This document shows, one piece after another, positions 10,517 to 21,097 of a DNA stretch of 64,000 bases. Origin of the DNA: Salinibacter pepae (lineage in GTDB: Bacteria; Bacteroidota; Rhodothermia; Rhodothermales; Salinibacteraceae); contig NZ_CAMTTE010000001.1 of NCBI RefSeq assembly GCF_947077775.1, positions 1,488,001 to 1,552,000 of the forward strand, read 5' to 3'. Position 1 is the first letter of the stretch. The number at the start of each line of letters is the position of its first letter. A program made the translations under genes and the position numbers. The notes beneath the pieces were generated by a model. It was given only the letters and a program-made list of their open reading frames with translations. It ran no database searches and was not told the DNA's origin.

Positions 10517-13396
10517 ATGCCTTCTCCCGCCCGCAACATCACCACCCTTCTCTGGCCGAGCGACGACATGCTCTCCGCCAATGCCAAGTCTCGGCTGCAG
10601 GTGGTTCGTCTGCTCTGTCTCCTCGGGAGCCTCCTGATTCCCCTTTACGGCCTCCTGTACGAGGCTGCGCGCCCCGAGGCAACCGATCCGATGTGGATCC
10701 GGCTCGTCATTGCGGGCGTCTTGGGGGCGTTCGTGGCGGGCACGTACGCTCTGCGAACGCTTCGCACCCACTGCGTCGGCATCGCGTGGGGACTGCTCTA
10801 CCTGTTGATGGCCTGGAGTGTGGGCCTGGCGGCGGTCAATCAGTTCTCGGGGGCGTACGTGGTGGGCATGCTCGTCGTGTACGCTGTCTCCGCTACCCTG
10901 GTGTTGGTCAGCAGTCAATTGCTGCGGTCCGTGCTGTCGTTTTTGTCGGCGGGCCTGCTCCTCACGGGGGCTGCACTGCTGTGGGCCCCTGCCGTTCAGC
11001 TGAGCCCCCTGGTGCTGTGCGGGGGCATGGCCATGGTGGCCTTCGTCGTCGGGGGGGTCGCGCGGGGGGCTCTGCGCGTGCGAAGGCGCCTTGCGGACCA
11101 GGCGCGGGAGCTCCAGAAGCAGCGAGACCGGCTGGAGGGCCATCGGGCGTACACCAACCGCCTCCTCAACGCGACCGACGACCTGTTCTTTGCCCTCGAC
11201 CCGGAAGGCCAGTTTCAGTGGTGGAACGACCGCGTGTTGGAGACGACCGGCCTGTCCAACGAGGACGTCGGAAGCGTGGACGCGCTGGACCATTTTGTGC
11301 CGGCCGAGCGGGAGGAGCAGGCCAAGCAAGCCATCCGCAGGGTGCTTCAAACCGGCAGCGGCCAGGTGGAAGTGCCCCTCGTGGCCGACGACGGAGTGGC
11401 GGTGCCCTACGAGTTCGTGGGCAACCCCGTTGAAAACCTGGAAGGGGAGCGCCAGATCGTGTGCGTCGGCCGGAACGTTGCCGAGCGGAAGCGTCGGGAG
11501 CGGGAGCTGCGGGAGAGCGAGCGGCGCTTCCAGGCGATGCTGAACGACCCGAACATCCTCGCCGGCGTGCTCGCGCCGGACGGGACGTTCCAGAAGGTCA
11601 ACGACACGGCCCTCGGGTACATCGAGGCCACCCGGGCGGACATTCTCGGCCGGCCGTTCTGGGAGACCCCCTGGTGGGACACGGAAAACAGGTTGGCGGT
11701 CCGGGAGAAGGTCAGGCGCGTGGCCGAGGGGGAATACGTGCGCTTCGAAGCCGAGCACGTAACGCCGAGCGGGGAGGCCCGGACCGTGACCGGGATCATG
11801 CGCCCGGTGACCGGCGAGGCGGGGGAGGTCGTCTCGATTTTTGTCACGGCCCGGGACATTACCGAACGGAAGCGACGGGAGGAGGCCCTTCAGGTGGCGG
11901 AGGGGCGGTACCGGGCGCTTATCGAGAACTTTCCCGGGGGCGTTTTTCTCTTCGACGAGGATTTGCAGTATACATTGGCAGGGGGACGCGAACTCCGAGA
12001 CGCGGGCCTCTCCCCGTCGGACGTGGAAGGGGGAGGTCCGCACGACATATTTCCGGCCGCCCTGGCCGAGGAGCTCGAAATGTACTTCCGGCGCGCACTC
12101 AGCGGCGAGAAGAATGCGTTCGAGCAGACGATGGACGAGCGCCGGTACTTCAACCGAACGCTCCCGGTTCGGGACGAGGCCGGAACGGTTATCGCCGGCA
12201 TGGCGGTCGCCCAGGACATCACCGAGGAGCGCCGCCGCAAGGAAAAGCTCGAGCGGAAGAACGATCTCTTCCAACGGGCCCAGGAGATTGCCAATGTTGG
12301 CGGGTGGGAGTACGACCTAGACACGGGTGCCCTCACCCTCACCGACCAGGCCTACCGCATCCACGGCGTTTCTCCGGGCGCGAAGATGACGCTGGAGCGG
12401 AGCCACGGGCTGTACCATCCCAATGACCGATGGGAGGCCGAAGAGGCCTTCCGCCGGGCGGCCGAGGACGGGGTGCCCTACGACGTCGAGGCCCGCCTGA
12501 TTACCGACGCTGGGGAGGAGAAGTGGATCCGCACCCGCGGGGCGCCGCAACAGGACGACGGCCGGACGGTTCGGGTCCGTGGAACGATCCAGGACATCAC
12601 CGACCAGAAGGAGCGAGAGCAGGCCCTCCGTACGGCCAAGGCCGACGCGGAGGCGGCCCGCCAGGAGGCCGAGGAGGCCAGCCGCCTCAAAAGCGCCTTC
12701 CTCGCCAACATCAGCCACGAGATTCGCACGCCGCTGACGTCGATTATTGGCTTTGCCGAGCTGATCGGCTCGGAGGCCGGCGCGTTGGATCTGTCGGACA
12801 GCCCGCTCCCGGGGTACGCCACCATGATCGAGCGAAGCGGGAAGCGCCTGCTCGAAACGCTGGAGGGGGTGCTCAACCTCTCCAAGCTACAGTCCGGGCA
12901 GATGAAGCTGGAAACGGCCCCGGTCGACCTGACCGAGCAGATCCGCTGGGCCGTTCAGGAGCTCCGCCCGAAGGCTGAGGAGAAGGGGGTTCGCCTTCAG
13001 CTCGAGACCGGTTGCGCCGTGGCCGAGGGCGACGAGGGCGGCATCCAGATCGTCATTCGGAATCTGGTCTCCAATGCGATCAAGTACACCGAGCAGGGCG
13101 GCCGCATCTGGGTCCGGTCGTTTCGGGACGAGGACCGGGCCGTGCTTGAAGTTGAGGACACCGGCATTGGGATGGACCCGGCGGTGGCCGAGTCGCTCTT
13201 CGAGCCGTTTCGACAGGCGTCGGAAGGGCTAAATCGCGAGTACGAGGGGACCGGCGTCGGCCTGGCGGTCACGAACAAGGCGGTTGCCCAAATGGACGGA
13301 TCCATCGAGGTAGACACCGAGAAAGACGAGGGCACCCGGTTTACCATCCAGCTTCCGGCCTCAGAGGAGCATCCGACCGGTGGCTCCGCCCCGTGA
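10517..13396 (+). CDS. Membrane PAS-domain sensor histidine kinase (kinase 1)
   Basis: 959 residues. Residues about 30-190 form a six-helix membrane domain (VRLLCLLGSLLIPLYGLLYE onward), paralogous to that of the kinase at 19340. Four PAS domains follow, at about 215-330, 336-455, 460-570 and 580-700, then HisKA with the phospho-acceptor His734 in SHEIRTPLTSIIGFAE and an HATPase domain with NLVSNAIKYTEQGG and a DTGIGMDP G-box. There is no receiver domain. PAS2 (11481-11874) is almost identical in DNA to a PAS of the kinase at 16440-18707. No response regulator gene is adjacent. Ligand and partner are unknown; redox, light or energy sensing is plausible from the PAS array and the rhodopsin neighbours. 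Confidence 0.92.
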   Translation: MPSPARNITTLLWPSDDMLSANAKSRLQVVRLLCLLGSLLIPLYGLLYEAARPEATDPMWIRLVIAGVLGAFVAGTYALRTLRTHCVGIAWGLLYLLMAWSVGLAAVNQFSGAYVVGMLVVYAVSATLVLVSSQLLRSVLSFLSAGLLLTGAALLWAPAVQLSPLVLCGGMAMVAFVVGGVARGALRVRRRLADQARELQKQRDRLEGHRAYTNRLLNATDDLFFALDPEGQFQWWNDRVLETTGLSNEDVGSVDALDHFVPAEREEQAKQAIRRVLQTGSGQVEVPLVADDGVAVPYEFVGNPVENLEGERQIVCVGRNVAERKRRERELRESERRFQAMLNDPNILAGVLAPDGTFQKVNDTALGYIEATRADILGRPFWETPWWDTENRLAVREKVRRVAEGEYVRFEAEHVTPSGEARTVTGIMRPVTGEAGEVVSIFVTARDITERKRREEALQVAEGRYRALIENFPGGVFLFDEDLQYTLAGGRELRDAGLSPSDVEGGGPHDIFPAALAEELEMYFRRALSGEKNAFEQTMDERRYFNRTLPVRDEAGTVIAGMAVAQDITEERRRKEKLERKNDLFQRAQEIANVGGWEYDLDTGALTLTDQAYRIHGVSPGAKMTLERSHGLYHPNDRWEAEEAFRRAAEDGVPYDVEARLITDAGEEKWIRTRGAPQQDDGRTVRVRGTIQDITDQKEREQALRTAKADAEAARQEAEEASRLKSAFLANISHEIRTPLTSIIGFAELIGSEAGALDLSDSPLPGYATMIERSGKRLLETLEGVLNLSKLQSGQMKLETAPVDLTEQIRWAVQELRPKAEEKGVRLQLETGCAVAEGDEGGIQIVIRNLVSNAIKYTEQGGRIWVRSFRDEDRAVLEVEDTGIGMDPAVAESLFEPFRQASEGLNREYEGTGVGLAVTNKAVAQMDGSIEVDTEKDEGTRFTIQLPASEEHPTGGSAP
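11481..11874 (+). repeat. 394-bp repeat, copy 1 (inverted relative to copy 2)
   Basis: Encodes the second PAS domain of kinase 1, from RKRRERELRESERR through VTARDITERKR. Aligned by eye with the reverse complement of 17251-17644, it shows about five mismatches in 394 bp, clustered at about 11749-11771, one of which changes a codon from Ser to Asp. Identity stops abruptly at both ends. This points to recent copying or gene conversion between the two kinases. Confidence 0.9.
13154..13209 (+). repeat. 56-bp repeat, copy 1, in HATPase coding sequence
   Basis: Encodes the G-box segment EDTGIGMDPAVAESLFEPF of kinase 1. By eye it is identical to the reverse complement of 16669-16724 in kinase 2, while the flanking codons differ at many third positions. 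A second patch of shared sequence between the same two genes supports gene conversion. Confidence 0.75.
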
Positions 13397-13768: not shown

Positions 13769-15325
13769 CTATGCCCCGAGCTCCGGCGCCTCCCGTCGGC
13801 CGGCCGCGCCGTCCCCGGTCGTGCTCTCGAACCCTCCTTCCGTGCCGTTGGCGGGGGCTTTCGGGCCGTCCGCACGGCCACTGGCGTCCCGACTGCCGAC
13901 GCGGAACTCGTCGACCAGCCCGCGGAGGCTGCCCGTCAGCTCCTCCAGCTCCGTGGCCGCCTGCACGACCTCTTCAATGCCCTCCGCTGACTCGTCGGAC
14001 ACCTCGGAAATCGACTGCACGCTTTCGGAAATCTGGTCCCCGGTCGCCGCCTGCTCTTCGGTCGCGGTGGCGATGCTGTCGACCCGGTCGGTAATGCCCC
14101 CGGTGCTGTCCACAATCTCTTCGAAGGCATCGGCCGCCTGCCCGGCCAATTCAATTCCGGCCTCCACCTCGCTTTGTCCCTGCTCAATGGCGCCGACCGC
14201 CTCACTGGTGTCTTCCTGAACGGAGGAGACCATCTGCTCGATCTCGTCGGTGGCCTTCGACGTCCGCTCGGCCAGCTCGCGGACCTCCTCGGCCACGACG
14301 GCAAATCCCTGCCCCGTCTTTCCGGAGCCGTCGCCCCCCGCACGGGCCGCCTCGATGGCCGCGTTTAGGGCGAGAAGGTTCGTCTGGTCGGCAATCTCGT
14401 CGATCGTCGCCACGATCTTGCCAATCTCCTCGCTCGATTCCTTCAGTCCACTAACGGTCCGGGCGGAACGCTTCACGACATCCCCGATCTCCCGCATCTT
14501 GTCGACGGCCTTCAGCACCACGTCTCCATTCTCCTCGGCCAGCTCCCCATTCTTTCGGGCGGCCTTGGCCGTCTCGGTCGCGTTCTCCGCGTTGTCGTCA
14601 ATCGTGCGGGCCATCTGCTCCATGGCGGCGGCAACCTCGTCGGCCTGCTGGGCCTGCTTCTGCACCCCAGCGTTCAGCTGATCGGCCGAGCTTGCGAGCT
14701 GGTTGGCGACCGCGTCGGTCTTCTCGACCGCCCTGGACAGGCGATGAAAGACCTGCTGGATGTTCTGGACGGACTGGTTGAACTTGCTCTGCAGGCGCCC
14801 GATTTCTTCGGCCTGCGAGGCATCCATCTTGGACGCGAGGTCGCGGCCCGCCGTCTCGGCGTCAACTTGGACCGTCAGGTCCCCTCCGGCGAAGCGGTCC
14901 ATGGCCCCGACCATCCGGTCCACTTCTTCGGAGAGGGCCTCCTTCTCTTTCTCCCGCTTGTTGGCGAGGGACTCCGCCTCGCGCTTCGTCTCTTCGGCCT
15001 CGGCCTTTCGCTCTTGGGCCTCCTCAATGCGGGTGCGGAGGGACTGGCGAAGGTCGTCGACGGCCCGGTACACGTCGCCGAATTCGTCGCCGCGGCCGGT
15101 GCGGATGGACTTGTCGAGGTTGCCCTCCGCAAGCTTCGAGGTGACGTAGCGCAGGTCCGTCAGCGTGGTGATCGTGATCGTGCCCGTGATGGACCCGATC
15201 GTGAGGAACCCGACGAACGTCGCCAGCCCGCTGGCGAGAGGGTTCTCTGTGACCAAGACCGTTGCCACGATCATGACGCCAGTCAGCAAATACCAGAAGA
15301 CGTATTTCGTCAGAAAGCGTTTCAT
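13769..15325 (-). CDS. Two-helix methyl-accepting transducer of the rhodopsin (Htr-like)
   Basis: 518 residues. Two membrane helices (about 8-26 and 31-53) are joined by only a few residues (TENPL), so there is no periplasmic ligand domain, as in haloarchaeal rhodopsin transducers. A HAMP domain follows (about 54-110), then a long coiled coil and the MCP signalling hairpin with tip [14 protein letters not shown] at about 355-370. The tip carries a short insertion (GGDGSGKT) before the usual [13 protein letters not shown]. Immediately downstream of the rhodopsin gene (56 bp, same strand), it should relay the photo-signal to CheA/CheW. The frame stays open well upstream of the ATG at 15325, but that part is antisense to the rhodopsin. 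Confidence 0.92.
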
Positions 15326-15381
15326 GGGAGCGTAGGGTGTTGGGAGCCAAACAGTGAGGGGAAACGAAGCAGGGGCGGCGC

Positions 15382-16101
15382 CTAGGCGGCAGACGTGACC
15401 GTCGCTACGTCGCCCTGCCCAGAAGCGGCCTCGGGCTCTCCGCCGGTCACCTTGACAAAGTTCTTGCGCGCCCGATAGATGAAGTAGACAAACGGCACCT
15501 TCGCGGTCACGTCCAGGTAGCTGATGATCACCGCAATGCCCGCCGCGTCGACCCACTGCAGCCCCGGCCCGAAGAGCCACACCAGCGGGTAGGCGAGCCA
15601 GAGCAGCCCGACGTAGTTCAGCAGGAGCCGCGCGAGCCGCCGGTGGGAGGGCGGCTCGCCGAATGCCGAGTTGCGCACCGGCCCGTAGAGGAGCGCGAGG
15701 AGGGTCAGGTGACAGGCCGAGGACAGCCCGAAGAACACCCACTGGGCCGTGGACGAAAACACGACGGCCCCCAGGCCGAACACGATCATCATGAAGTCGG
15801 CCAGGGCGGTGCCCGTGATCATGCCCCGGCTGGCCCCGGCAATGTACGCGGTGTACCCCACGAGAAGGGGCGTGGTGAGGGCCCAGTCAATATACCGGGG
15901 GATGGGTACGTGATACCCCTGAAACTGCACCGACCCGACGTCGAACGTCATGAGCAGGTACATGAACGCGGCAATTCCGGGAATGGCCCAGAGGTAATCG
16001 AAGTCGAGCCCCACTTCGTCGCCAACCAGCGACAGGGCAGGGGGAATCCCGACGAGCATTCCAAGGGTTCCGATGATGTAAACGATCGTAATCGGGTCCA
16101 T
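15382..16101 (-). CDS. Sensory rhodopsin (microbial type I rhodopsin)
   Basis: 239-residue seven-helix retinal protein. Helix C reads [12 protein letters not shown] with Arg69 and Asp72, the position of the Schiff-base counterion (bacteriorhodopsin Arg82/Asp85). The proton-donor position (Asp96 in bacteriorhodopsin) is Tyr83, which argues for a sensor rather than a pump. Helix F has LAYPLVW, and helix G YLDVTAKV has Asp197 and the retinal-binding Lys201. The ATG at 16101 gives the standard length. The transducer gene follows 56 bp downstream, so the pair resembles the SRI/Htr systems, although in haloarchaea the transducer gene comes first. S. ruber is known to carry sensory rhodopsins; colour and signal polarity cannot be read from sequence. 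Confidence 0.94.
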
Positions 16102-16439: not shown

Positions 16440-18707
16440 TCATCCACCGACTCGGTCGGACCGGCCCATTTTCTTCTCGTTCGGGTCCGTTGCTGAACGC
16501 GTGGCCTTCCGGTCCGCCGCCGGAAGCCGGGCGGTGAACGTGCTTCCCTGCCCCTTTTCCGTTTCCACGCCGATGGATCCCCCCATCTGCTCGGTCGCCT
16601 TCTTCGTCACTGCCAGCCCGATGCCAGTGCCCTCGTACTCACGGGACAGCCCCTCGGACCCCTGCCGGAACGGCTCGAAGAGCGACTCGGCCACCGCCGG
16701 GTCCATCCCAATGCCGGTGTCCTCGATTTGCAGCACCGCCTCCCCGTCCTCTCGGTACGTCCGCACCTGCACCGTCCCTTCCTCCGTGTACTTGATCGCG
16801 TTGGACAGGAGGTTCTGGAGTACGATCTGGAGCCCCCCTTCGTCGGCCCGGGCGCCGGCCTCTTCGGCCTCGACCTCGAGCGCAAGGCCGCTGTCGTCCG
16901 CCTCCGCCGCAAACTCCCGGGCGACCTGCCGGGCCTGATCCGCCAAATCGATGGGGCGGGACTCCAAGGTCATCTGTCCGGCCTCCAGCTTCGAGAGGTT
17001 GAGCACCGCATCCAGGGTGTCCAGCAGCCGCCGGCCACTGTCTTCAATCAGGTCCGCGAAATGAGCGACGCCGCCATCTCCGTCGATCTCGTCCCCGATC
17101 GCCTCGGCAAACCCAATGATTCCGGTCAGCGGCGTGCGAATCTCGTGGCTCATGTTCGCGAGCATGGCGGACTTCATGCGGCTGGCCTCTTCGGCCTCCA
17201 GCTTTGAGAGCTCGGCCTGCTCCTTCGCCTGTTTGAGCCGCCGCGCCTTCCGCTTCCGTTCGGTAATGTCCCGGGCCGTGACAAAAATCGAGACGACCTC
17301 CCCCGCCTCGCCGGTCACCGGGCGCATGATCCCGGTCACGGTCCGGGCCTCCCCGTCCGGGGTCACGTGCTCGGCCTCGAAGCGCACGTATTCCCCCTCG
17401 GCCACGCGCCTGACCTTCTCCCGGACCGCCAACCTGTTTTCCGTGTCCCACCAGGGGGTCTCCCAGAACGGCCGGCCGAGAATGTCCGCCCGGGTGGCCT
17501 CGATGTACCCGAGGGCCGTGTCGTTGACCTTCTGGAACGTCCCGTCCGGCGCGAGCACGCCGGCGAGGATGTTCGGGTCGTTCAGCATCGCCTGGAAGCG
17601 CCGCTCGCTCTCCCGCAGCTCCCGCTCCCGACGCTTCCGCTCGGTGATGTCCGACAGGACGACCGTCTGGGTGTCCATGCCCTGTCCCAGGCTTGTCTGG
17701 ATCACCCGAAAGTACCGACAGTGCTCCTCCGAACGCGCGCTGGCTTCGGACTGCACCGTGTTGGTCGTCGCCTGCCCCCCTCCGCACTCCTGCGCCTCTC
17801 CCTTCTCGAATCCAGCCCGCCACGCCGGCTCCCCACGGCGAATCGTCTCCCCGAGCCCGGGCAATGCCTCCGTCAGCGGCCGCCCCAGGTCCTCCTCGCT
17901 CAGCGAGGGAATGATTTCCTGGATCCCGCCGCCGAGCCCCCGGATCCGCCCCTCCCGCCCGATGGTCAGGTTCGGCTCCTCCACGCTCCCGGTTAGTTGC
18001 ACGACACTAAACTGGGTTTCGTAGGCAAACAGCAGCCCGATTGCAAACACCGCCACCCCCAGCGGCTCGTGGGTGATGTCCAGCAGCGCCGGTTCGACGT
18101 GTCCGATGACATTGAAGGCCGCCGGCAGGGCCGTGAGCCCCGTCAGCACTCCCAGCGGGAGCACCTTCGCCTCCGCCTCGAGAAGAAACTCAAAGATCAT
18201 CAGGTAGCCGGCCGCCGACAGGGCGTAGGCCACGGCCATCACGACCCAGTAGAGCGTCTCATGGGTCACGACCAGGCCAAAAGCGCCCCCCACCGGCTCC
18301 AGCCCGTAGTAGAGGCCGTGCAGCGGGTTGGTCACCTTCAGGGCGGTGACGATCACAAACACGGCGGCCGCGAACTGCTGAACCTTGAGGCTCCGGTGGA
18401 GGCCCCGCCCACTGTAGGCGGAGCAGAACCAGAGCCAGGCGAAGACGGTGCCGAAGCCGACGATCAGGCTCAGCTGGTAGAAAAGGTGCTTCTCGAAGGC
18501 CGACCCGACCAGCAGGAAGCCCACGTAGGCCCCGGCCCAGACAGCACTTCCGGAAAAGAACCACGTCAGGGCCTGCCGGGTCTCCGGCGACGGAATCGAC
18601 CGGGCCCGCAAGGCAGCCCCCAGACAGGCGGCGGTCGCGGCGACGAAAGCAAGAAGATAACCGGTGTAGGTTATAGGCGCGGATGCCTCAATCAGGCTTC
18701 CGATCAT
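16440..18707 (-). CDS. 7TM PAS-domain sensor histidine kinase (kinase 2)
   Basis: 755 residues from the ATG at 18707. An N-terminal seven-helix domain (about 1-225) includes LKVTNPLHGLYYG, a segment typical of the HisKA_7TM sensor domain common in haloarchaeal kinases. A degenerate PAS region (about 235-360), a second PAS (about 372-490), HisKA with His521 in SHEIRTPLTGIIGFAEAI and an HATPase domain (NLLSNAIKYTEEG, DTGIGMDP) follow. There is no receiver domain. The second PAS is almost identical in DNA to PAS2 of kinase 1. In-frame ATGs further upstream (18743, 18845) precede polar sequence and are less likely. Located directly upstream of the rhodopsin-transducer pair on the same strand, separated by 338 bp. 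Confidence 0.9.
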   Translation of the reverse strand: MIGSLIEASAPITYTGYLLAFVAATAACLGAALRARSIPSPETRQALTWFFSGSAVWAGAYVGFLLVGSAFEKHLFYQLSLIVGFGTVFAWLWFCSAYSGRGLHRSLKVQQFAAAVFVIVTALKVTNPLHGLYYGLEPVGGAFGLVVTHETLYWVVMAVAYALSAAGYLMIFEFLLEAEAKVLPLGVLTGLTALPAAFNVIGHVEPALLDITHEPLGVAVFAIGLLFAYETQFSVVQLTGSVEEPNLTIGREGRIRGLGGGIQEIIPSLSEEDLGRPLTEALPGLGETIRRGEPAWRAGFEKGEAQECGGGQATTNTVQSEASARSEEHCRYFRVIQTSLGQGMDTQTVVLSDITERKRRERELRESERRFQAMLNDPNILAGVLAPDGTFQKVNDTALGYIEATRADILGRPFWETPWWDTENRLAVREKVRRVAEGEYVRFEAEHVTPDGEARTVTGIMRPVTGEAGEVVSIFVTARDITERKRKARRLKQAKEQAELSKLEAEEASRMKSAMLANMSHEIRTPLTGIIGFAEAIGDEIDGDGGVAHFADLIEDSGRRLLDTLDAVLNLSKLEAGQMTLESRPIDLADQARQVAREFAAEADDSGLALEVEAEEAGARADEGGLQIVLQNLLSNAIKYTEEGTVQVRTYREDGEAVLQIEDTGIGMDPAVAESLFEPFRQGSEGLSREYEGTGIGLAVTKKATEQMGGSIGVETEKGQGSTFTARLPAADRKATRSATDPNEKKMGRSDRVGG
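16669..16724 (-). repeat. 56-bp repeat, copy 2, in HATPase coding sequence
   Basis: Reverse complement of the segment at 13154-13209 in kinase 1, identical by eye, encoding the G-box region of kinase 2. Confidence 0.75.
17251..17644 (-). repeat. 394-bp repeat, copy 2 (inverted relative to copy 1)
   Basis: Encodes the PAS domain of kinase 2 just before HisKA. About five mismatches by eye to copy 1 at 11481-11874, in opposite orientation. The two copies enclose kinase 1's end, the transducer, the rhodopsin and kinase 2's HisKA/ATPase part, so recombination between them would invert about 5.4 kb. Confidence 0.9.
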
Positions 18708-19339
18708 GGGCGGGTCGTTGTGCAAAAAAGCTCGCTGCAACATAGCGTCCACTCTAGTGGAGCAAGAAAAGGGCCGCGCATGCTCCAGCTCTTGATCCGT
18801 ATCGGACTCGTCAAACTCGACATGGGTCGTCACAGCCCCCGTCAAATTTCCTCCTTCGGTGGTCCTCGTATCGGCCGGCCGGCGCTACGAACGGGCCTTT
18901 CACAGCTACCAGTCCCCGGTAATTTTACGGCGTAGGCGCCGCGACACCGGGCCGCGCCCCCCGCTCCAGCGGGCCTCCAGTGCCCGTTCGGGCCCGGCAT
19001 CGTTTTTTCTGTATTCAACTGCGCCTGCCCAGCACTGCGCGGTGGCCGTTTTCTCGCTCCCGTCGTGCCCCTTCCTCGACGATCGGTGCGGGGGCGCGGC
19101 CGTGGGGTGTCCGCGCGGCACAGCTCCCCCCGGCGGATGTGGGACATAGTGTATTTTTAAAATACACGCCTTTAATGCCTCGCCGGTCGGGCCGATGATT
19201 ATAATCCAACGGATGAGAAGACCCCCTGGGCGTGGCCGTATGGGGCCCATCCCCTCGGCCCCTGCACGGCCGGCACGAGCGACCGCATCATCTGGTGCCG
19301 CACGACGCACCTGACCTCCGACTTTTCTCTCTGCCTTGC
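18708..19339. other. Intergenic region, 632 bp, between divergent kinases
   Basis: Separates kinase 2 (minus) from kinase 3 (plus) and must hold both promoters. Most of it is GC-rich without a convincing coding frame. The exception is the AT-rich stretch 19140-19210 with a perfect palindrome at 19149-19167. Confidence 0.5.
19149..19167. promoter_or_regulatory. Perfect 19-bp palindrome upstream of kinase 3
   Basis: GTGTATTTTTAAAATACAC has 9-bp arms around a single central T and stands out as AT-rich in GC-rich DNA, with TTTAATG and GATTATAAT close by. It lies 172 bp before the kinase 3 start. A dimeric repressor or activator operator is the simplest reading; the regulator is unknown. Confidence 0.5.
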
Positions 19340-21097
19340 ATGGACGGCGAGACGCTTCCTGTCGACGAACACAGCCACGTTCGGGTCGCCCGCCTACTGT
19401 GTCTGCTGGGGGCCATCCTGGCATCCCTGTACGCCCCCCTGTACGGGGCCGGTGCCGACGCCCCAATCTCGGGGACCTGGCTTCACGTCGGCGTAGCGGG
19501 ACTGCTCGTGGCCCTGATCGGCGCCTCGTACATCTCCGACACGGTCCGTCGCCGCCACGTGGCGATCACGTGGGGGCTGCTCTACGCCATCATGGGATGG
19601 GCCGCGGTCCTCGCCGCGCTCAACGAGTTCGCCGGGGGGTACGCGGTGGGTGTCCTTCTGGTCTACGCCGTCTTCGGGGGCGTGGTGGCACTGGGAAGCG
19701 CGTCGATAAGACCCGCCTTGACGTTTCTTCTGGCGGGCCTTTTGGCAGTTGGGGGGGCACTGCTGTGGGCCCCTGCGCTCCAAACGAGTCCCTGGGTGCT
19801 GATTGGGGCCATGGGGGTCGTGGCCCTCGTCGAGGGGGCCACCCTCCGGTGGGTTCTGTCGGTGTGTGCCCGCCTTCGGACCCAGGGGCGAACCCTTCGC
19901 GAGCAGCGCGACCTCCTGGACCGTCTCGTGGAGACGAGTCCCCACGCGGTCGTGCGGGTCGACGGAAGCGGGGCGCCCACCGATGCAAATGGCCGGGCCG
20001 AAGAGATTCTCGGCACCGATGTGGAAGCGGTGTCCGGCGACTCGGACGCCCCCCCCACAGGCGGGTCCGCCGGAGACGAGGAGACAACGGCCCCCGGCAC
20101 CCGCCCCCTTTCGCAGGTTCTGCAGGTGAGGCGCGTCGTGCGCAACCTGAAGTGCTCGGTCGCGCGGCCGAACGGCACCCGGCGCGTGCTTTCGGCCAGC
20201 GGCGCGCCGGTGCGGGGGGCCGACGGGACGATCCGCGAGGCCGTCTTTCACCTCGAAGACGTGACCGAGCAGGAACGTCGGAAGCAGGCCCTCCGACGGG
20301 CCGAAGAGGAGATCGAAGAGGCCGATCGCCTCAAGTCCGCCCTGCTGGCGAACATGAACCACGAAATCCGCACCCCCTTGACCGCGATCATCGGGTTTGC
20401 CGAGGCGATCGGCACGAGCGCCAGTGAGATGGACCTGCCCGAGCACACCCCACTGACCGGCTACGCCGACCTGATTGAGCAGAGCGGGAAGCGCCTGCTC
20501 GACACCTTCGAGGACATACTGGACCTCTCCCAGCTGGAGGCGGGCCAGATGGAGCTCGGCATCGAGACGGTCGACCTCGCCGAGCAGGCCCGCCGGGCCG
20601 TCCAGGAATGCGGGGCCAACGCTCAGGACAAAGAGATCGACGTGCGGCTGGAGGCGACCAGCGTCTCTGCGCGTGCCAATGAGAACGGGGTCCAGGTCGC
20701 GCTGCAGAACCTCCTGGACAACGCGATCAAGTACACGGCGGATGGGGGCACCGTGTGGGTGCGGACCCGTCCGGAGCCGCGGACGGCCGTGCTGGAGGTC
20801 GAAGACGACGGGGCCGGGATGGAGCCGGAGACGGTCGATCAGCTCTTCGAGCCGTTCCGACAGGCCTCCACCGGCATGGCACGCGAGTACGAAGGCGCCG
20901 GGGTCGGCCTCGCGGTCACGAAGGAGGCGACCGAGCAGATGGGCGGGGCGATTGAGGTGGAGACCGAGCCGGGGGCCGGCAGCCGGTTCCTCATCCGATT
21001 TCCGATGGCGGACCACAGCACTCACGACTGCGGGGACGGCCCCGTTGAGCCTTCCGAGGAGGCCGCCGATGCGCATCGGGCCCCCAGACGGCCGTGA
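19340..21097 (+). CDS. Membrane PAS-domain sensor histidine kinase (kinase 3)
   Basis: 585 residues from the ATG at 19340. An N-terminal six-helix membrane domain (about 15-185, VARLLCLLGAILASLYAPLY onward) is a clear paralogue of that of kinase 1. One PAS domain follows (about 200-320), then HisKA with His341 in NHEIRTPLTAIIGFAEAI and HATPase (NLLDNAIKYTADGG, DDGAGMEP). Asn replaces the usual Ser before the phospho-acceptor His. There is no receiver domain and no adjacent response regulator. The HDOD gene starts 63 bp downstream in the same direction and may be co-transcribed. The stimulus is unknown. Confidence 0.9.
   Translation: MDGETLPVDEHSHVRVARLLCLLGAILASLYAPLYGAGADAPISGTWLHVGVAGLLVALIGASYISDTVRRRHVAITWGLLYAIMGWAAVLAALNEFAGGYAVGVLLVYAVFGGVVALGSASIRPALTFLLAGLLAVGGALLWAPALQTSPWVLIGAMGVVALVEGATLRWVLSVCARLRTQGRTLREQRDLLDRLVETSPHAVVRVDGSGAPTDANGRAEEILGTDVEAVSGDSDAPPTGGSAGDEETTAPGTRPLSQVLQVRRVVRNLKCSVARPNGTRRVLSASGAPVRGADGTIREAVFHLEDVTEQERRKQALRRAEEEIEEADRLKSALLANMNHEIRTPLTAIIGFAEAIGTSASEMDLPEHTPLTGYADLIEQSGKRLLDTFEDILDLSQLEAGQMELGIETVDLAEQARRAVQECGANAQDKEIDVRLEATSVSARANENGVQVALQNLLDNAIKYTADGGTVWVRTRPEPRTAVLEVEDDGAGMEPETVDQLFEPFRQASTGMAREYEGAGVGLAVTKEATEQMGGAIEVETEPGAGSRFLIRFPMADHSTHDCGDGPVEPSEEAADAHRAPRRP

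Follow-up and report, generated by a model that had tools for sequence, protein, structure and literature searches.

A sensory rhodopsin I pair of Salinibacter pepae whose transducer appears to combine an archaeal HtrI-type front with a bacterial chemoreceptor rear

Introduction

We describe a gene pair encoding a sensory rhodopsin I (SRI) and an adjoining chemoreceptor-like transducer (Htr) within a 64,000-nt stretch of DNA from Salinibacter pepae, referred to here as the window, in whose forward numbering all window coordinates are given. The closest described system is the SrSRI–SrHtrI pair of Salinibacter ruber, for which the review PMC3274258 reports a retinal pigment at 557 nm with a slow photocycle, an Asp72 counterion and a chloride site at His131, and, downstream in a probable operon, a 518-residue two-helix transducer that shifts the spectrum of the rhodopsin. 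Phototaxis is given there as an expectation, and Mongodin 2005, Kitajima-Ihara 2008 and Sudo 2009 are cited for the pair. The window locus is the orthologue of this published pair: the rhodopsin gene comes first, a 518-residue two-helix transducer lies directly downstream, and Asp72 and His131 are both present. Because the S. ruber pair has been described, neither the pair nor its rhodopsin-first order is new; unlike S. ruber, the window genome lacks a second pair (SR2) and a halorhodopsin.

The window pair also resembles the haloarchaeal SRI–HtrI pairs (Halobacterium, Haloarcula, Halorubrum; structure 9wxr), with a rhodopsin of the same clade and a transducer whose first transmembrane helix (TM1), short loop, second helix (TM2) and first HAMP domain form one clade with theirs. 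It differs from them in that the haloarchaeal transducer gene comes first and abuts or overlaps the rhodopsin gene, and in that the output half of the window transducer comes from an unrelated lineage. The window transducer thus appears, on comparison of its sequence, to be a natural hybrid of an archaeal HtrI-type front and a Rhodothermota chemoreceptor rear. Engineered fusions of Htr to chemoreceptors give E. coli light control, and these likewise combine an archaeal front that binds the receptor with a bacterial output end, the junction lying near HAMP, although the window chimera is natural and its rhodopsin gene is kept separate. A literature search, with the original S. ruber papers outside its reach, found no description of a chimeric transducer, and none is mentioned in the accessible part of PMC3274258.

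Results

The window genome comprises 3.63 Mb in three contigs, and its same-genus relatives include S. altiplanensis and the complete genome G015, which carries four rhodopsins and is probably S. ruber. The two genes are arranged as follows.

15382..16101, minus strand: sensory rhodopsin I gene, ATG at 16101, last codon ending at 15385, stop codon 15382-15384, 239 aa
15326..15381, minus strand: gap of 56 bp from rhodopsin stop to transducer start, equally long in G015
13769..15325, minus strand: transducer gene, HtrI-type/bacterial chemoreceptor chimera, ATG at 15325, stop at 13769, 518 aa

Pfam matches of both genes are well above cut-off (Bac_rhodopsin, 4.5e-35, for the rhodopsin; MCPsignal, PF00015, 4.2e-46, and HAMP, PF00672, 1.5e-11, for the transducer), and the gene pair is far beyond chance. 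An earlier reading of this DNA, made from sequence only, had described a 239-residue rhodopsin with Asp72, Lys201 and a tyrosine at the proton-donor position, followed 56 bp later by a two-helix transducer of the methyl-accepting chemotaxis protein (MCP) type with almost no outside loop. Alignment to H. salinarum SRI, the stop-to-ATG count and hydropathy (a loop of ~7 residues) agree with each of these points. The transducer, 97.4% identical to its G015 copy, has the layout of HtrI, with two transmembrane helices, a very short outside loop and then a HAMP domain.

15248..15304, minus strand: TM1, aa 8-26, from hydropathy and alignment with HtrI TM1
15170..15226, minus strand: TM2, aa 34-52, preceded by the ~7-residue outside loop, from hydropathy
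15035..15163, minus strand: first HAMP, aa 55-97, PF00672, 1.5e-11
14996..15325, minus strand: archaeal HtrI-type segment, aa 1 to about 110, from tree, structure match and sliding comparison
14966..15013, minus strand: switch zone between HtrI type and bacterial type, about aa 105-120, where the best-match group changes
13769..14965, minus strand: Rhodothermota chemoreceptor-type segment, about aa 121-518, from trees and identity searches
14000..14560, minus strand: MCP signalling domain, aa 256-442, with a hairpin tip bearing a resident-type insert, GDGSGKTGQ

The two ends of the transducer point to different relatives. A tree of the N-terminal part (112 columns) joins the Salinibacter Htr proteins with archaeal HtrI (100/98.8), and residues 1-60 score 40 bits against archaeal HtrI and at most about 21 against all else. 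The closest solved structure to the front is the SRI–HtrI fusion 9wxr (residues 8-103, 1.5e-13), in which the rhodopsin matches Haloarcula sebkhae SRI at 97% identity; HtrII structures match the transducer only from residue 33 onward. In a 53-row tree of the signalling core, by contrast with the front, the output core of Salinibacter Htr falls with the window genome's own chemoreceptors (100/100), separated by a long branch from the archaeal transducers, and it is still nested among Rhodothermota receptors when those of other families are added. The top matches other than Htr in an order-wide search are also Rhodothermota receptors (48-51%), and for residues 120-480 the score is 318 bits with a resident receptor but 167 with HtrI. 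In a sliding comparison the window transducer passes from one group to the other a single time, at about residue 105-120, and HtrI of H. salinarum, used as a control, at no point. The SR2 transducer of S. ruber changes over at the same place, with a front still nearer to HtrI (54-61% over short windows); the two transducers sharing this switch point belong to paralogous pairs with rhodopsins 53% identical.

Alignment to H. salinarum SRI (HsSRI) places Lys201, Asp72, Arg69 and Asp197 of the window rhodopsin at HsSRI 205, 76, 73 and 201, making Lys201 the retinal lysine, Asp72 the counterion and Tyr83 the residue at the proton-donor position, which thus has no carboxylate; His131 and Tyr163 are also present, and the retinal-pocket residues are kept. 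Tyrosine there has no diagnostic value, because haloarchaeal SRI carries Tyr or Phe at the donor position. The rhodopsin is 97.9% identical to its G015 counterpart, 89% to that of G012, 81% to that of S. altiplanensis and about 43% to haloarchaeal SRI; the only other rhodopsin of the window genome is a xanthorhodopsin-like pump. A rhodopsin tree of 47 rows recovers an SRI clade (100/100) in which the five Salinibacter SRI-type proteins (99/97) stand beside eleven haloarchaeal SRI (100/99), apart from the SRII, bacteriorhodopsin and halorhodopsin clades. A placement with proton pumps, the outcome against which the sequence-only reading had set its SRI assignment, was not seen, and a proton pump is ruled out by the clade and the missing donor together.

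The nearest neighbours of the SRI clade are haloarchaeal SRII, and within it Salinibacter SRI is sister to, and not nested in, the sampled haloarchaeal SRI; a transfer from haloarchaea, if that was its source, was therefore old or came from an unsampled lineage. The same sister position would suit a pair born in bacteria and passed to haloarchaea, where its output half was swapped for an archaeal one. We consider this improbable, although it survives better than the other alternatives, since SRI groups with haloarchaeal SRII, the transducer front is nearest, after HtrI, to archaeal HtrII (54 bits versus 31 for Salinibacter receptors), and in a scan of 84,980 species genomes, of limited sensitivity, Salinibacter and haloarchaea alone yielded SRI relatives. 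No viral sequence encodes a relative; among plasmids a comparable pair is found only in Haloarcula litorea, the other plasmid matches being remote rhodopsins.

Two more rhodopsins occur in G251, a genome of the same order but another family (L140:5958-6722 and L141:3909-4748), and the former was included in the rhodopsin tree while the latter was left out. The better-scoring L140:5958-6722, with 29% identity to the window rhodopsin, falls outside the SRI/SRII group and has no transducer within its fetched flanks, so a second bacterial SRI lineage in G251 was rejected.

Gene order separates the Salinibacter from the haloarchaeal pairs without exception in our survey. The transducer gene comes first at each of the 12 haloarchaeal SRI loci whose flanks are intact, where the genes abut or overlap, and also in the SRII pairs of H. 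salinarum and Har. vallismortis, in keeping with the rule claimed in the earlier reading. The rhodopsin gene comes first in every one of the five Salinibacter pairs, including the diverged SR2 pair of S. ruber, with gaps of 56 bp here and in G015 and 61-85 bp in the others; together with the rhodopsin tree, this upholds the claim of a bacterial SRI/Htr pair in the order opposite to that of haloarchaea. As the SRI and SR2 pairs are rhodopsin-first alike, the reversal is older than their split. The SR2 pair of G015 is missing from the window genome as a clean 2.6-kb gap (L145:7722-10337 against L186:12289-12341), bordered by stretches mostly 95-97% identical between the two genomes and with chemotaxis genes nearby, and the divergence of SR2 from SRI (53% identity) far exceeds that of the two species.

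The earlier reading had also proposed transfer of the module, and this holds for the rhodopsin, which lies in the SRI clade, and for transducer residues 1-~110, which are HtrI-type, but not for the Rhodothermota-type output half. The unrelated MCPs with which, on that reading, the transducer ought not to group are in fact the relatives of about three quarters of it, because the output half belongs to Rhodothermota chemoreceptors; the receptor-binding quarter groups elsewhere. It might still be argued that the whole pair moved intact from haloarchaea and was only rearranged, its output half having become bacterial-like through adaptation to the host CheA/CheW; the HtrI-type N-terminus, the SRI-type rhodopsin and the narrow distribution of the pair, confined to four of the 27 genomes of the family, would all agree with this. 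The output half, however, aligns to resident receptors at 49-57% identity and with few gaps for 190-350 residues, compared with about 32% and 30-40 gap positions against HtrI, its helix lengths and tip insert are of the resident type, and adapting a few contact residues would not yield such a sequence. Forcing the output core onto archaeal HtrI costs 82 log-likelihood units and is rejected (p 1.3e-13), and with this C-terminal tree against it, intact transfer is very improbable.

Several features of the genome bear on what the chimeric transducer and its rhodopsin do. The window genome carries a single CheA along with two BCD-family (retinal-forming) genes and three flagellin matches. Among the ten Salinibacter genomes at least 90% complete, four have both SRI and CheA and six have neither (Fisher 0.005, shared ancestry uncorrected), which is the pattern that a taxis sensor predicts. 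The near-complete genomes G013, G014, G016 and G020-G022 are without CheA and SRI, and chemotaxis is patchy across the genus. The least probable alternative of all is a rhodopsin that acts chiefly as a pump, or as a photochromic sensor working with a different partner, the adjoining transducer being incidental: phototaxis by the pair rests on inference and sensory rhodopsins elsewhere in bacteria (Anabaena) have different roles (PMC5812497), but the SRI clade, the donor position lacking a carboxylate, the pairing kept with short gaps in all five Salinibacter loci, transducer helices of the HtrI receptor-binding type and the SrHtrI-dependent spectral shift reported in PMC3274258 argue against it.

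The surroundings of the pair have features of their own. Three related PAS histidine kinases lie around it (16440-18845, 10517-13396 and 19232-21097), that upstream of the rhodopsin carrying a 7TM sensor region (PF16927). Two of these kinases point in opposite directions on either side of the rhodopsin module, and their PAS domains hold an inverted repeat of 394 bp (11481-11874 and 17251-17644). Its arms match at 98.7% identity within the window genome and at 98.2% within G015, but at 94-95% between the two species, and this greater likeness within than between species suggests ongoing gene conversion. Inversion of the module between the repeats was considered and rejected, as four species are all colinear. 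The base composition of both genes, overall (GC) and at third codon positions (GC3), equals that of the surroundings and carries no information on transfer; a promoter scan found no sigma-70-like site, and Rfam and tRNA searches of the window returned nothing.

Discussion

We conclude that the pair most probably encodes a light receptor for the control of swimming, with phototaxis as the inferred role, and give this explanation as a whole, its evolutionary part included, a probability of about 0.85. Judging from its residues and the published spectroscopy of S. ruber, retinal on Lys201 would absorb green-orange light with Asp72 as counterion, and the missing donor would make for a slow signalling photocycle. 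A slow photocycle and a pigment near 550-590 nm are expected of an SRI. By homology to SRI–HtrI, for which a 2:2 complex is expected, the rhodopsin would bind and move both membrane helices of the transducer and the first HAMP would relay the change inward; the remainder, a resident Rhodothermota stalk and tip, is predicted to couple to the host CheA/CheW array and hence to the flagellar motor. The rhodopsin and the transducer front would derive from an SRI–HtrI-type source, likely on the haloarchaeal side; a resident chemoreceptor would have supplied what follows about residue 110, the gene order would have been turned round, and all of this would precede the SRI/SR2 split.

Some observations weigh against this explanation. 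On 112 columns, the approximately unbiased (AU) test still allows the front to group with Salinibacter receptors (p 0.255), and the claim for the front therefore rests on tree support, structure match and sliding comparison jointly. The data do not root the direction of transfer. The switch residues of the haloarchaeal pairs are also not kept in the window pair: HsSRI His166 is Tyr163, HtrI Glu56 is Ile50 and HtrI Asn53 is Thr47, although Asn165 of HsSRI is kept as Asn162. PMC3274258 gives His166 of SRI and Glu56 and Asn53 of HtrI as sites flipping or restoring the archaeal response, and lists HtrI Asn53 and Glu56 as inversion and suppressor sites. As these sign-setting residues differ, the sign of the response, attractant or repellent, is not transferable from archaea.

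A tentative and rather doubtful route to the chimera is that one circle carrying htrI-sopI underwent a single crossover inside htrI with a resident receptor gene, which would give the reversed order and the chimera together, with the mirror product lost and phototaxis gained. No mirror fusion (an MCP with archaeal output) was found among the window genome's receptors in the tree or the S. ruber receptors checked, and the idea is thus a conjecture with no direct trace. If true, an archaeal light sensor was plugged into the bacterium's own chemotaxis array.

The chimera may also explain, within one history, why the gene order is reversed. The zone at about residue 105-120 would be a naturally tolerated junction for building light-controlled chemoreceptors. 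With its archaeal front and bacterial output, such a natural transducer illustrates a way in which a photosensor could pass from one domain of life to another: the front alone has to travel, and the host lends the back.
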